DNA of 6,755 nt from NCBI GenBank assembly GCA_020061125.1, contig JAGUYV010000227.1:1-6755 (forward strand), in the 5' to 3' direction. A program made the translations under genes and the position numbers. This document shows positions 1,364 through 6,755 of this stretch, piece by piece; the first letter of the stretch is position 1; every line of letters starts with the position of its first letter. A model generated the notes under the pieces. That model saw only the letters and a list, made by a program, of their open reading frames with translations, was not told where the DNA came from and ran no database searches. Origin of the DNA: a bacterium. GTDB lineage: Bacteria > UBP15 > UBA6099 > DSWB01.

Positions 1364-1392
1364 TTGACGATCCCGCCGCGCTTCTATACAAT
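1364..1392 (+). promoter_or_regulatory. Predicted sigma70-type promoter of the GreA-type gene
   Basis: TTGACG (1364-1369, five of six to consensus) and TACAAT (1387-1392, five of six) are separated by exactly 17 bp. Transcription would start near 1399, leaving a leader of about 57 bases before the ATG at 1456. This placement argues against any start upstream of 1456, although the frame stays open back to 865. Confidence 0.65.
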
Positions 1393-1455: not shown

Positions 1456-3015
1456 ATGGCTGTATCCTTTAAAGAAAACGATTTGATCTGGAACGACACC
1501 CACGGCATCGGCCGTATAACGCTGTTCGATGAGGAGGGAATCCTCATCGAATTTGATACGGGCGCCGAAGAACTTTTCGAGACCGGCCCGAAAAAACACC
1601 CGCCGCTTGTCAAACTGGACCCGGCGGGTTTTTTATTGCAATTCAGAACAGAGCCGGACGCCATGCGCGCCCTGGCTGCGGAAAAACCTGCGGACATCGT
1701 CGCCCTTTTGCACACGGATTTCGGTGATACCCTGAAAGATGCGCAGATTCAGCGCATCGTCAGCGGCCGCGCGATCGAGCCTGACGCGTGGGCCGAGTGG
1801 TGGAAGTCCGTCCAGGCCGCGCTCAAGGACGACCCGCGGTTCAATCTGGAAAAGAACTCTGTGCAATACCTCGGTGACATGGTGGAAATCGCGGGAGACC
1901 TGCTGCACGAATTCAAGACCGCTCGCAATCTCAAGGAACGGCAGCGCGCCGCGCGCAAAATCCTGAAAATGGAAGAAAAAGGCGTACCCGTTGACGACGC
2001 CAAAGAAGCCGCAATCCTGTTCTTCGCGGGCACTGCGGCCAACGCTTCGAACACCCTGGGCGCGCGGCTCGAGGCCCTGCTTTTCCTCGAAACCCTCGAT
2101 TCCGTGGAATACCGGCGGCAGAAAACATCCATCGAAGACCGCGTCAAAAACCAGGATGTGCAGGACGCCGCCCAGGCCCTGGCCGATATCACGGACAAAA
2201 TCATCGCCGGGCGTCTGCTCGACATTTACAAGGACCTGCTGGCGGATGTGTTCATTGACATCGCCTTCACGCTGACAAAACGCTATAAGAAACAGCAGCG
2301 CGACTGGATCCTGGATTCCCTGCTCGAGGACGAAAATTCCGAGTACATCAAAATCGTGCTCGACGCGGTTCTGCGGGATGTCCCCACCAACCAGCAGCCC
2401 TTCGTGTGGTTCGGCATGCGCATGCTGGAAAAACCCGAGAAGCTCATGGAGCTGGGCTATGATCGCGCCGACATTGTGCGCCGCTTCTTCAAGCTGCTGC
2501 TGGATGCGCACATCACCTCGGCGTTTTCGTCCAATCCCAAAGACGGCCCTTCGGTGAGCCGCGAGGAAGACGAAATCAAGAAATTCCTGCTCCAGAAGAA
2601 AAATATCGTCAAGCTGCTCAAGAAGCATCCGGACGAAATTGTGCTCCAGTTCGCGCATTCATACATGGACAACAAGGCCCTGTCCGACGAGGACAAAAAG
2701 GAAATGCTAAACCTGATGCGCGAAACCTGGACCAGCCTCAACTTCGAGGCTGCGGCCGCCGCGGCCGCCGCGGGCGGCGCCGCCAGCGAAATTGCGCTCA
2801 CCCAGGAAGCCTACGATAAATACGAATCCGAATACCGCGACATCGTGGATGTGCAGATGCCCGAAATCTCCAAGGAGATCGGGCGTGCGCGCGAGTTCGG
2901 AGACCTCTCGGAAAACGCCGAGTACCATGCCGCCAAGGAAAAGCAGGGCATGCTCGCCAGCCGCATGCGGTACCTGGAACGCCTTCTGGAAACGGCAAGC
3001 ATTATTTCCCAGTAA
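1456..3015 (+). CDS. greA: GreA-type transcription factor: Tudor/CarD-like domain, long helical region, GreA N-domain, no GreA C-domain
   Basis: The protein has 519 residues. Residues 5-55 look like a small beta-barrel of the Tudor or CarD/RID kind (FKENDLIW, HGIGRI, ILIEFDTG). Residues about 60-430 are largely helical and include PDAWAEWW (109-116). An eight-alanine linker (432-439) leads to a full GreA N-terminal coiled coil (448-519). There GDLSENAEYHAAKEKQ (482-497) holds the acidic tip pair D483 and E486, equivalent to D41 and E44 of E. coli GreA, which stimulate RNA cleavage by stalled RNA polymerase. The FKBP-like C-terminal domain that normally anchors GreA to polymerase is absent: the stop follows the second helix and a terminator lies 31 bases on. 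From memory, the architecture resembles the oversized GreA of Chlamydiae, which has a C-domain and is longer. Start chosen at 1456 because a promoter lies at 1364-1392 and the upstream frame overlaps the opposite gene. Confidence 0.85.
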   Translation: MAVSFKENDLIWNDTHGIGRITLFDEEGILIEFDTGAEELFETGPKKHPPLVKLDPAGFLLQFRTEPDAMRALAAEKPADIVALLHTDFGDTLKDAQIQRIVSGRAIEPDAWAEWWKSVQAALKDDPRFNLEKNSVQYLGDMVEIAGDLLHEFKTARNLKERQRAARKILKMEEKGVPVDDAKEAAILFFAGTAANASNTLGARLEALLFLETLDSVEYRRQKTSIEDRVKNQDVQDAAQALADITDKIIAGRLLDIYKDLLADVFIDIAFTLTKRYKKQQRDWILDSLLEDENSEYIKIVLDAVLRDVPTNQQPFVWFGMRMLEKPEKLMELGYDRADIVRRFFKLLLDAHITSAFSSNPKDGPSVSREEDEIKKFLLQKKNIVKLLKKHPDEIVLQFAHSYMDNKALSDEDKKEMLNLMRETWTSLNFEAAAAAAAAGGAASEIALTQEAYDKYESEYRDIVDVQMPEISKEIGRAREFGDLSENAEYHAAKEKQGMLASRMRYLERLLETASIISQ

Positions 3016-3046: not shown

Positions 3047-3076
3047 AACGCCGCCCAGCGCGGCGTTTCTGTTTCT
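3047..3076 (+). terminator. Rho-independent terminator of the GreA-type gene
   Basis: AACGCCGC (3047-3054) and GCGGCGTT (3060-3067) form a perfect 8-bp stem with a 5-base loop, followed by the T-rich run TCTGTTTCT. It begins 31 bases after the stop at 3015. On the minus strand the sequence after the stem has no T-run, so it probably serves the plus-strand gene mainly, although it also lies just past the end of the convergent transporter gene. Confidence 0.7.
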
Positions 3077-3082
3077 GGCGGA

Positions 3083-4636
3083 TTAATCCGGATCCCGCCC
3101 CGCGCCCTGCGGCGCGCCGGGGTCGCGATGGTTGTTGCGCGTTGTGAATCCACGGACCCTTTCCCGCAAGGCGCCGCTCTCACTGCGGCCCACTCCAGTG
3201 AAGGGGTGAAAGGACACGCCGCCGAACGGGCGCACGCCGCGGAACACCAGGAACATGTCCCTGAAGCGCGGCTCTCCCACCGGCCGCACCTCGCGCACCG
3301 TGGGCAGGAAGAAAAACACCACGACAAACCGCATGGCCGAGGAGACCAGGAAAATGAATTGCAGCGGAGAAAGAAAAGTGACGGTGAGCGCGCCCGTGGA
3401 CAGAGTGGCCGGAGCGCGGGCGCTCAACCACGCGCCGAACATGGCGCCTAAAAAAAACCCGATGCCGTTAAAAAAGTTGAAATACGCGGCGCACCGCGCG
3501 CGCTTGGGCGGGGTCACGGCGTCGAATATGAAATTGTTGGACGCCAGGAACCAACCGGCCCAGGCCAGTCCGGCCAGCACCTGAATGGCCAGGATGTAAA
3601 TGTAATCCGTGGACAGAAACCACAGGAGCGGGATCCAGGGAGAAATGGCCGTGCAGATGCGCATGGCCGCGCGGTTGCCGAACCGGTCCGCGAATGCGCC
3701 CCACCGGTGCATGGCCAGAAACTGCGAGCCTATGAACACGCCCTGGGCGATCATGAACTGCATGTAGCTGAACCCGAGGTCGCGGAGCATATAGACCGTG
3801 AAGAACGGGGCGGCCATCTGCACGGCGAAGGTCATTAGAGACACGAAATACACGAAGTGCGCGAAGTTGGACCGGCCGCTGCGGCGCAGGAAACTCCAGA
3901 AGCTGAAATATGCGCCCTGGGGCGGATTGTAGGGCGCTTCGAAATGCCCGGCCAGAGCCAGGGTCGAGCCGACGCGCGATGCGACAGCCAGCCCCAGAAT
4001 CACTGCAAATCCCATGCGTGCAGCGCCTGTGTTGTCAAACCATTCGAGAATCAGCCCGGCCGCCGCCATGGATGCGAACAGCACGAGTTGCGACAGGCCA
4101 TTGCGAAATCCGAGATATGCGCCCCTGTTCCGTTCCGTGGTCAAATCCCCGATCAGGCTGTTCCAGGCGGGCAGCACCACGCCGTTCACCGAGAAATAAC
4201 CGATACCGAACAGCACCAGAAGCCACGGTGAGCTTGTGCCCTGCGCCACGGTCATGAACATCCAGAAAAGGATCGCGGTCTGAACGACCACCGCGCCCAC
4301 GATGATGCGCTTGCGCACGCGCAAGCGCTCCACCAGCGCAATGCCGAGGAACTGCGCGAAGGCCAGGAAAAGCTGGGGCGCGGACGCGAATGCGCCGATT
4401 TGAAAAGTGGTGGCGCCCACGGCGATGAGCAGGGGGATGAAGTAGGTTTCGCCGAATCCCACCATGGACGCGTAGAAGCAGCCGTCCGCCACGCTGTAGC
4501 GCATGCTGCGGCGTCTTTTCTCCGCAGGGATGGCCGCGGCTTCGTCAGCCGGCGCTTCCCGTGCGTGTGGTTGTGTGCTGTCCGTGTCCGGCATGATCCG
4601 GCCCGCGCGATGAAATTTGCGCTTTGTCTCCCGCAT
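3083..4636 (-). CDS. Major facilitator superfamily (MFS) transporter
   Basis: The 517-residue protein has a charged cytoplasmic N-terminus (1-48), then about 12 hydrophobic helices between residues 50 and 446. They split into two halves around a basic loop near 235-257 (SFLRRSGRS). A recognisable MFS motif A lies in the second half, WGAFADRFGNR (312-322). The matching loop of the first half (VERLRVRKR, 102-110) is degenerate. The loop after helix 4 carries SLIGDLTTERNRGAYLG (160-176), a common variant in this group. A hydrophilic tail of about 65 residues follows. It should be an inner-membrane secondary transporter. The substrate cannot be told from sequence, and the neighbours give no pathway. 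The start is uncertain: neither ATG 4636 nor the in-frame ATG 4594 has a good ribosome binding site, and 4636 fits the predicted promoter with a leader of about 30 bases. Confidence 0.85.
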   Translation of the reverse strand: MRETKRKFHRAGRIMPDTDSTQPHAREAPADEAAAIPAEKRRRSMRYSVADGCFYASMVGFGETYFIPLLIAVGATTFQIGAFASAPQLFLAFAQFLGIALVERLRVRKRIIVGAVVVQTAILFWMFMTVAQGTSSPWLLVLFGIGYFSVNGVVLPAWNSLIGDLTTERNRGAYLGFRNGLSQLVLFASMAAAGLILEWFDNTGAARMGFAVILGLAVASRVGSTLALAGHFEAPYNPPQGAYFSFWSFLRRSGRSNFAHFVYFVSLMTFAVQMAAPFFTVYMLRDLGFSYMQFMIAQGVFIGSQFLAMHRWGAFADRFGNRAAMRICTAISPWIPLLWFLSTDYIYILAIQVLAGLAWAGWFLASNNFIFDAVTPPKRARCAAYFNFFNGIGFFLGAMFGAWLSARAPATLSTGALTVTFLSPLQFIFLVSSAMRFVVVFFFLPTVREVRPVGEPRFRDMFLVFRGVRPFGGVSFHPFTGVGRSESGALRERVRGFTTRNNHRDPGAPQGAGRDPD

Positions 4637-4713: not shown

Positions 4714-4740
4714 CCCGCCGCGCTATGAGCGCACGGCGGG
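4714..4740 (-). other. GC-rich stem-loop spanning the flagellin stop codon
   Basis: CCCGCCG (4714-4720) pairs with CGGCGGG (4734-4740). Inside it, CGC (4721-4723) pairs with GCG (4729-4731) around the loop TATGA, with a two-base bulge (CA). The stop codon (4723-4725) straddles the inner stem and loop. No T-run follows on the minus strand, so it looks like an mRNA 3'-end stabiliser or a Rho-dependent end rather than an intrinsic terminator. Confidence 0.4.
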
Positions 4741-6090
4741 GCCGTCGTCTCCAACGGAGTGCTGATTCAGCAGATCGAGCACCAGGGACGGGCTGGCGTT
4801 GGCCTGGACCGCGGCGCTGGCGTTGCTTTGCGCCAGAACCTGCGATCGGGTGAGCGCGGTGATTTCCATGGCCATGTCCGCGTCCTCAATGTGCGAGCGC
4901 GCGGCTTCGATGTTGATAATTTCAGCCATGTTGTCTTCCAGGGTGTGCAGATACCGGTTCATGAGTGCGCCGTCTTCGGCGCGGCGCGTGTTCAGCGTGT
5001 CTATGGCGCCGCTGATGCTCTCAAGCGAATTGTGCGCCAGCGATGTGTTCGAGAAATTCGCGGTCACTCCAAGAGCGATGGAATCCACTTCAAAAAGGCT
5101 GATTTGCCCGGTATCCACATCCTTGATGTTTTGCGGCCCGAGCTGGACATTTCGCCCTTCCACGGGTTTTTCCGTGGGCTTGTTCACAAAGATGGCGAAG
5201 GAGGATGCAGTCGGTCCCTCGTTGTCAACGATGATGGTCCACAGTCCTTCGGCGGGATCGTCTATTATAAATTGTTCAGTGTAATAATCGCCCGTGGCGC
5301 TCAAATGCTGGCCCCATCCGTCATATTGAACGCTGGCCGCGCTGTCCATGGTTCCGATCCCGAAATCGTCGGGGTCTCCATTGTTGACTGCGGGCTGGGG
5401 CACGAACACGCCGTCATTTGACGCATAGGATTCCACGGTGCCCGGAACGCCGAAATTGAACGGGCAATACAGCCATCCGAAAGCCTCCGTACCGTCGGGA
5501 GACAACAGGTTGGCGTCCGGAAATTCCGCACCGGCCTCGAACCAGGCGAAGTTCAGTGTCACGGGCTGTCCCGTGCGGTCATAAATGGCTTTGAGATCGA
5601 GCGAAACAGTCTTGATTGCACCCTGGTAGAACCCGAAATTGCCCGCGCCAATCTCCGTCACGCTCGGGCCGAACACCTTGAGTTCGTTAAATTTCGTTTC
5701 CATGTTGATCTGATCCAGGGCTTGAATCAGAGAGGCCGCCTCGCCGGTCATCTTTTTGCGATCCGAATCCGTGAGCGTGGCCTCATTGGAAGCGCGCACG
5801 GACAATTCCTTGAGCCTAAGCAGGATGTCGTTGACTTCCTGCATGGCCGCGTCGCGCAGGCGCAGAAAGTTCACGGTGTCCTGAAGATTGGTGTTGGCCG
5901 TGCGCAGGCCCCGGATACGGGATGCCATGCCCTTGCCGATCCCCAGGCCGCTGGGGTCGTCCGCGCCGCGGTTGATAAACAGAGCGCTGCACAGGCGCTG
6001 GGTTGCATTTTGCATCCCGAAGCGGTTGAGACGGCCGTAATTGTTCGCCTTATTGGCGATGTCGTTGTTAATAAGGCTGATGATGCTCAT
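4723..6090 (-). CDS. fliC: Flagellin with a beta-sandwich insert in the variable region
   Basis: This 455-residue protein is the subunit of the flagellar filament, exported by the flagellar type III system. Residues 1-140 are the conserved N-terminal D0/D1 helices (QRLCSALFINRGADDPSGLGIG at 31-52, LRLKELSVRASN at 91-102, KFNELKVF at 133-140). Residues about 330-441 are the matching C-terminal D1/D0 part (NRYLHTLEDNMAEI, SHIEDADMAMEI, VLDLL). Between them, residues about 175-305 form a beta-rich insert with LLSPDGTEAFG and EGLWTIIVDN. These resemble P-domain or PPC-type beta-sandwiches rather than ordinary D2/D3. No HExxH protease motif is present. C34 and C209 are unusual in a flagellin. The protein continues 14 residues past the usual LDLL end. 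GGAG (6100-6103) lies nine bases before the ATG. No other flagellar gene is adjacent. The symbol follows usual flagellin naming. Confidence 0.93.
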   Translation of the reverse strand: MSIISLINNDIANKANNYGRLNRFGMQNATQRLCSALFINRGADDPSGLGIGKGMASRIRGLRTANTNLQDTVNFLRLRDAAMQEVNDILLRLKELSVRASNEATLTDSDRKKMTGEAASLIQALDQINMETKFNELKVFGPSVTEIGAGNFGFYQGAIKTVSLDLKAIYDRTGQPVTLNFAWFEAGAEFPDANLLSPDGTEAFGWLYCPFNFGVPGTVESYASNDGVFVPQPAVNNGDPDDFGIGTMDSAASVQYDGWGQHLSATGDYYTEQFIIDDPAEGLWTIIVDNEGPTASSFAIFVNKPTEKPVEGRNVQLGPQNIKDVDTGQISLFEVDSIALGVTANFSNTSLAHNSLESISGAIDTLNTRRAEDGALMNRYLHTLEDNMAEIINIEAARSHIEDADMAMEITALTRSQVLAQSNASAAVQANASPSLVLDLLNQHSVGDDGPAVRS

Positions 6091-6406: not shown

Positions 6407-6755
6407 ATGACGGAAATCAGGGAACAACAACTCGAAGATCTGATGAGCAGGGCCGCGGCCTCTGGAGCGCGTTTTGCGGATGTGCGAGCCGTGACCGGAG
6501 ACAGCTCCACGGTCGAGGTGCAGGACGGGCGCGTGGAAAAGGTGCACGCCACGCGCAGCCAGGGCGCGGGCGTGCGCGTTCTGGTGGGAAACGCCTGGGG
6601 TTTCGCATCGGTCAACAGTTTTCGGGAGGCGGATCTCACGGAGTGCCTTGAGCGCGCCCTGGAGCAGGCGCGCGCCCTGGCCCCGTACGCCACGGAGCCT
6701 GTCGAGCTTGCGGATTGCCCGGCATCGCGCGGCCAGGGCGGCCCCGGCGGGATTC
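6407..6755 (+). CDS. TldD/PmbA family metalloprotease, N-terminal part; 3' end outside window
   Basis: The first 116 residues are present and the frame is open to the window end. They match the N-terminal domain of the TldD/PmbA (modulator of DNA gyrase, peptidase U62) family: a short helix (EQQLEDLMSRAAASG), ARFADVRAV (21-29), VEVQDGRVEKVHATRSQGAG (36-55), then VRVLVGNAWGFASVNSF and a helix ECLERALEQARALA. In E. coli TldD and PmbA form a cytoplasmic heterodimeric zinc protease that trims small peptides, such as microcin B17 precursor or CcdA. The zinc motif HExxxH lies in the missing part. The GVRVLV...WGFAS stretch leans towards TldD, but PmbA cannot be excluded. In many genomes the two genes are adjacent, so the partner may follow outside the window. 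It is divergent from flagellin with its own -10 box. Confidence 0.85.
   Translation, partial: MTEIREQQLEDLMSRAAASGARFADVRAVTGDSSTVEVQDGRVEKVHATRSQGAGVRVLVGNAWGFASVNSFREADLTECLERALEQARALAPYATEPVELADCPASRGQGGPGGI

Follow-up and report, generated by a model that had tools for sequence, protein, structure and literature searches.

The 6,755-nucleotide stretch of DNA analyzed here (the window) comes from a bacterium of the phylum UBP15 and encodes, at positions 1456-3015 of the plus strand, a long Gre-type protein that lacks the Gre C-domain. We found that the loss of this domain is genuine and conserved across the UBP15 phylum. In the usual description, a Gre factor combines a catalytic coiled coil with a docking domain that is required for binding. 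In our estimate, the odds are about even (roughly 0.5) that the UBP15 protein is a secondary-channel cleavage factor anchored to RNA polymerase by its N-terminal barrel and helical body and not by a Gre C-domain, both the anchor and the activity being what we infer. Furthermore, every UBP15 genome encodes a second GreA with an altered tip, which changes the meaning of the truncation of the long protein.

Architecture of the long Gre-type protein

The open reading frame at 1456-3015 (plus strand, stop codon at 3013-3015) encodes 519 residues. Upstream, the same frame stays open as far as position 865. Since orthologues of other genomes share the start methionine (MAVSFKEND, MAKSFKEGD and MAVNYHEGN), position 1456 is the likely start; the other end is shared as well. 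From the N to the C terminus, the product consists of a Tudor/RID-like beta barrel, a helical solenoid of about 370 residues and, at the extreme C terminus, a GreA N-domain. The sole Pfam domain found was GreA_GreB_N (PF03449), which matched residues 447-516 over profile positions 2-71 of 71 and is therefore complete (E 1e-24). An AlphaFold2 model built with six orthologues (mean pLDDT of 76 over the 519-residue protein) placed the barrel at residues 10-61 (1483-1638), a helical repeat at residues 67-438 (1654-2769) and the coiled coil at residues 450-480 and 488-513. An Ala-rich linker of low model confidence (residues 433-444, 2752-2787) leads into the GreA N-domain, an antiparallel coiled coil (residues 446-517, 2791-3006). 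Residues 444-518 of the model were superimposed by VIA-align onto residues 2-76 of E. coli GreA (1grj) with a Z score of 12.0 and an rmsd of 0.9 Å. In alignment, the tip residues D483 (codon 2902-2904) and E486 (codon 2911-2913) fall on the acid pair of the GreA tip (D41 and E44, respectively). This is in good agreement with the original prediction, made from the DNA alone, of a complete C-terminal N-domain with both tip acids, set apart from an N-terminal barrel by a long helical stretch.

A sigma-70-like promoter (TTGACG-17-TACAAT, 1364-1392, plus strand) was found as a consensus match only. The terminator that had been predicted to follow the gene corresponds to a stem-loop at 3047-3067 (plus strand), also a consensus match only, and terminator-like matches as a class were not above chance in this region (6 found against 3.2 ± 2.2 expected). 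By reading translations, we also noted a frame that looks like an MFS transporter (3083-4636, minus strand), a flagellin-like frame (4723-6090, minus strand) and what looks like the start of a TldD/PmbA-type protein (6407-6754, plus strand). The neighborhood of the long Gre gene appears to be different in relatives.

Conservation and kinship of the C-less form

As had been predicted, no C-domain follows the N-domain: PF01272 was not matched by the window protein, even at E values up to 10. When the whole genome was searched in six frames, a single PF01272 match was obtained, on contig C133, in a separate GreA of 165 residues. Therefore, none is hidden in another frame past position 3015. The genome itself, a MAG, is fragmented into 513 contigs and about 79% complete.

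The long protein is present in all seven UBP15 genomes (three families, four genera), with 38-39% identity to the window protein. The six orthologues were recovered by an alignment query; a single-protein scan of the genome contigs gave none. The original prediction had seen no frameshift at the end of the frame, and indeed all six relatives end at the same place, so that the end points of the seven proteins differ by no more than a few residues, just past the last helix. A laboratory GreA N-domain construct stops after codon 75, which is about the same end point (PMC7527559). The D-x-x-E tip is kept in 7/7 proteins, and the tip region, AREFGDLSENAE, is among the best-conserved parts, against the 38-39% identity overall. 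In a comparison of four congeneric species, dN/dS was 0.04-0.07 for the whole protein and 0-0.07 for the coiled coil. The common end point in seven genomes and the low dN/dS thus indicate that the truncation is a maintained state and not an error. That a frameshift, an assembly error or a decaying gene had produced it, as the fragmented assembly and one in-frame TAA in the G001 copy might suggest, is extremely improbable, given seven separately assembled genomes stopping at the same residue, no second C-domain in any frame and a dN/dS far below 1.

The TAA of the G001 orthologue (L005 / L057) lies mid-solenoid (APEGI*RIGRN), in a gene that otherwise retains an intact frame and coiled coil, and may represent a sequencing error, recoding or a recent pseudogene. 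In plasmid records, only the GreA part was matched, by ordinary GreA.

No relative within the phylum carries a C-domain, and none was seen in the helical body either; these were the two places where its presence would have told against the original prediction. The body matched HEAT/ARM-type solenoids, but only with middling Z scores of up to 8.5. This resemblance of the modeled body may reflect a mere common arrangement, and we claim no solenoid family for it.

The body could be linked to a known kind of protein. Residues 3-517 aligned to positions 304-821 of the NCBIfam model PRK14720 (906 positions, E 5e-39), and residues 25-518 aligned to positions 160-639 of PRK06330 (718 positions, E 1e-21), with scores far under the curated cut-offs (134 versus 714 bits and 77 versus 697 bits, respectively). 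After removal of the GreA domain, residues 1-440 still matched PRK14720 (E 5e-15). Similarly, hhalign against the long GreA proteins of other genomes gave 99.6% (E 7e-25), and residues 67-440 alone gave 99.3% (E 5e-20). The protein is thus a long GreA minus its C-domain and its N-terminal extension. Indeed, the long GreA fusions (NF011309/PRK14720 and NF004969/PRK06330, "transcript cleavage factor/unknown domain fusion protein") have the same order of barrel, helical body and GreA N-domain and align full-length. Unlike them, the UBP15 protein has neither the GreA C-domain, the alignment ending at position 821 of 906 in PRK14720, nor the N-terminal extension, the alignment beginning at profile position 304. 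Judged by sequence, it is a divergent variant of the known long GreA proteins that occurs throughout the phylum. The designation as a GreA-type protein thus holds for the N-domain, while the membership of the body in a known long-GreA family was absent from the original prediction. With GreA and GreB, the protein shares the complete coiled-coil N-domain and both tip acids, but it lacks their C-domain and carries the N-domain at the C terminus of 519 residues. Because the FKBP-like C-domain (PF01272) is missing, we do not class it as GreA, although it may work like GreA. Our literature search found no published description of a C-less long Gre or of the function of the body.

C-less forms are rare. 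In 145 genomes, a GreA C-domain follows nearly every GreA_N match (pairing read by eye), and outside UBP15 only two GreA_N matches were without one, a 90-residue GreA-N-only frame in G107 and a 566-residue frame in G111. We also ran a long-GreA profile over 386 genomes and read the result by eye. In one match, 32 other long forms reach the C-domain; a further C-domain-bearing long form was matched in two pieces (G200), and contig ends truncate two others. Long forms stopping before the C-domain were limited to the seven UBP15 proteins and to the proteins of G111 and G247, the only genomes examined from one other phylum.

The long proteins of G111 (L067:975-2627, minus strand) and G247 (L137:1462-3099, plus strand) share the body, the coiled coil and the C-less end with UBP15, and a complete short GreA is encoded elsewhere in the genome. 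In contrast to UBP15, the tip acids are missing from their long form (EEKGTKDSHY and AAGDPDSSSY), and it is their short GreA that has a canonical tip (GDLSENAEY and GDLRENAEY); they further differ in having tandem barrels, two of which seem to stand at the start of the G111 protein and apparently also of the G247 protein. In G111, a complete greA frame is directly downstream-adjacent on the same strand. A tree that included the coil grouped UBP15 with the G111/G247 phylum at 74%, but a body-only tree did not recover this grouping; by these trees, the C-domain may have been lost once, in a shared event, or twice separately.

The short frame of G107 (C1, L066:969-1238) is a free-standing GreA N-domain with a canonical tip (GDLRENAEY). 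There is no C-domain in any nearby frame, and a transporter-like gene follows. G107 also carries a complete GreA adjoining lysS.

The short GreA and the reciprocal tip pattern

The original prediction had suggested looking for a second full GreA in the genome. Besides the 165-residue protein on contig C133, we found a complete short GreA in every other UBP15 genome. Its gene adjoins lysS wherever the neighbor is readable and is not adjacent to the gene of the long protein. At the place of the tip Asp, the UBP15 short GreA has Glu (G000 and G001), Ile (G005) or Val (genus of G002), against Asp in 18 and Glu in 1 of a comparison set of 19 other Gre proteins. The Glu of G000 and G001 is a mild change. 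In Gre of M. tuberculosis, cleavage was abolished when the tip Asp was replaced by Asn but not when the Glu was changed (PMC3132773). G005 has in addition a third Gre (G005:C589:13008-13442, L040), which is complete, has the canonical tip GDLRENAEY and may have come from contamination (estimated at 4%) or have been gained recently.

The tip is thus altered in the short GreA of UBP15 and lost in the long form of the G111/G247 phylum, so that in each phylum exactly one of the two proteins keeps a canonical tip. A second Gre match was found in 9/9 genomes with a C-less long form and was absent from 31 of the 32 genomes with a C-domain-bearing long form. The Fisher p value of this association (3e-8) is overstated, as only two phyla, that is, one or two independent events, are involved. 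The count rests on the two best candidates per genome, and each of twelve genomes rechecked without this limit gave one GreA_N.

To us, the reciprocal change in two Gre proteins of the same genomes is the most interesting part of these data. UBP15 keeps the catalytic part and drops the docking part in one protein, with the reverse in the sister GreA, and this amounts to a natural test of the unnamed body of the long GreA. Should polymerase be bound by the UBP15 protein, its body would have to be an anchor. The same would then probably apply to long GreA proteins from other bacteria, among them the chlamydial kind (PRK06330), in which the C-domain masks the question.

Possible polymerase contact and functions

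We then considered the barrel as a candidate anchor. Folded alone with 15 relatives, it reached a pLDDT of 85. Its best match among solved folds was the UvrD CTD in complex with a polymerase lobe (7egs, Z 8.2, 1.4 Å over 48 residues), followed by PcrA (5dma, Z 8.0), RapA (Z 7.2-7.5) and CarD (Z 7.1-7.2), with unrelated barrels at Z 6-7; the myosin and Spt5 barrels scored only slightly lower than these best matches. A Z score of about 8 is middling for a small barrel; Tudor-like barrels are common, and such a match of a modeled fold by itself proves no binding. In sequence, hhalign of the RID motif gave 91-95%, over just 19-26 columns, compared with 0.2% for the helical body as a control. PF02559 (CarD/TRCF RID) was matched weakly and below the cut-off by 4/6 orthologues (best E 0.042) and was not matched by the window protein itself. 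The Tudor/CarD-like barrel of the original prediction thus resembles polymerase-binding Tudor/RID domains in its modeled fold and weakly in sequence, and the family assignment stays below the cut-off. Because of this resemblance, the "different polymerase contact" proposed there is the leading idea.

The RID of CarD and Mfd and the Tudor domains of UvrD/PcrA and RapA are small barrels whose fold the UBP15 barrel resembles, and the region of the GD-V-H-GIG motif matches the RID. However, the sequence likeness is confined to those 19-26 columns, and the UBP15 protein has no helicase or DNA-binding domain attached. Mfd and CarD bind the beta1 region through the RID fold (PMC5397179). A precedent for the proposed arrangement is HelD, in which a Gre-like coiled coil for the secondary channel is joined to other polymerase-gripping domains around the beta2 lobe (PMC7749165). 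Unlike the UBP15 protein, HelD has UvrD-like NTPase domains and an N-terminal coil; Pfam found no NTPase or helicase domain in the window protein, whose body is a helical repeat in the model.

Retention and conservation of the coiled coil and of both acids most simply suggest that the protein enters the channel and helps to cleave backtracked RNA. If it does so without a C-domain, something else must hold it. We propose the following for this divergent long GreA, from which the FKBP-like C-domain and the N-terminal extension present in its relatives have been lost. The coiled coil would reach through the secondary channel of RNA polymerase, and D483 and E486 would help to hold the catalytic metal, leading to cleavage of backtracked RNA. 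The polymerase would be gripped by the barrel and the solenoid, probably at the beta subunit, a contact that would take over from the one made by the C-domain with the beta' rim helices. In these genomes, the short GreA still has its C-domain but not the canonical tip Asp, so that it may occupy the same channel as a weak or non-cleaving factor. Tentatively, Gre function might even be split throughout the phylum between a beta-anchored long factor with the catalytic tip and a C-domain-anchored short GreA that cleaves little, if at all, while competing for the channel. Against a C-less cleavage factor speaks the finding that GreA needs both domains for specific binding (PMC7527559).

The next most likely explanation, which we nevertheless consider rather unlikely, is that the main task of the body on the polymerase is a different one and that the coil only regulates in the channel, by blocking NTP entry or by changing pausing, without cleavage, like Gfh1 or DksA. 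The G111/G247 phylum argues for it and counts against the cleavage-factor reading, since the body is conserved there despite the loss of the tip acids and so must have kept a role without cleavage. In addition, Gfh1 does not cleave although its acidic tip residues are kept (PMC4598747). In UBP15, however, the canonical D-x-x-E tip is present in all seven genomes, and the weaker tip belongs to the other Gre.

It is improbable that the protein no longer acts in the secondary channel and instead serves other partners as a scaffold made of barrel, solenoid and coil. Such a role would fit the middling HEAT/ARM scaffold matches of the body and the absent C-domain, but hardly the strict conservation of the tip acids and the strong purifying selection on the coil. 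More doubtful still is a cooperation in which, by exchange or in a complex, the short GreA would contribute its C-domain, seated on the rim helices, and the long protein an active tip, making an anchor of its own needless. The co-occurrence of the two proteins in all nine C-less genomes, the lack of a second match in nearly all C-domain-bearing ones and the reciprocal losses of tip and C-domain in UBP15 would agree with it. In UBP15, the part of beta' on which the Gre C-domain docks, the rim helices, also looks intact when compared with its E. coli counterpart. Yet one channel cannot take two Gre coiled coils at once, the two UBP15 genes are non-adjacent, and the tip pattern is reversed in the G111/G247 phylum. 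We therefore favor the cleavage factor held by barrel and body.

In addition, we noticed that the beta' subunit of UBP15 carries about 230-250 extra residues within its N-terminal domain (L147, G000:C241:6900-12200; also G001, G002, G003 and G005). PF04997 matches beta' in two pieces in these five genomes and in one piece in G111. The extra residues may be a clamp insertion like the one known from Thermus.
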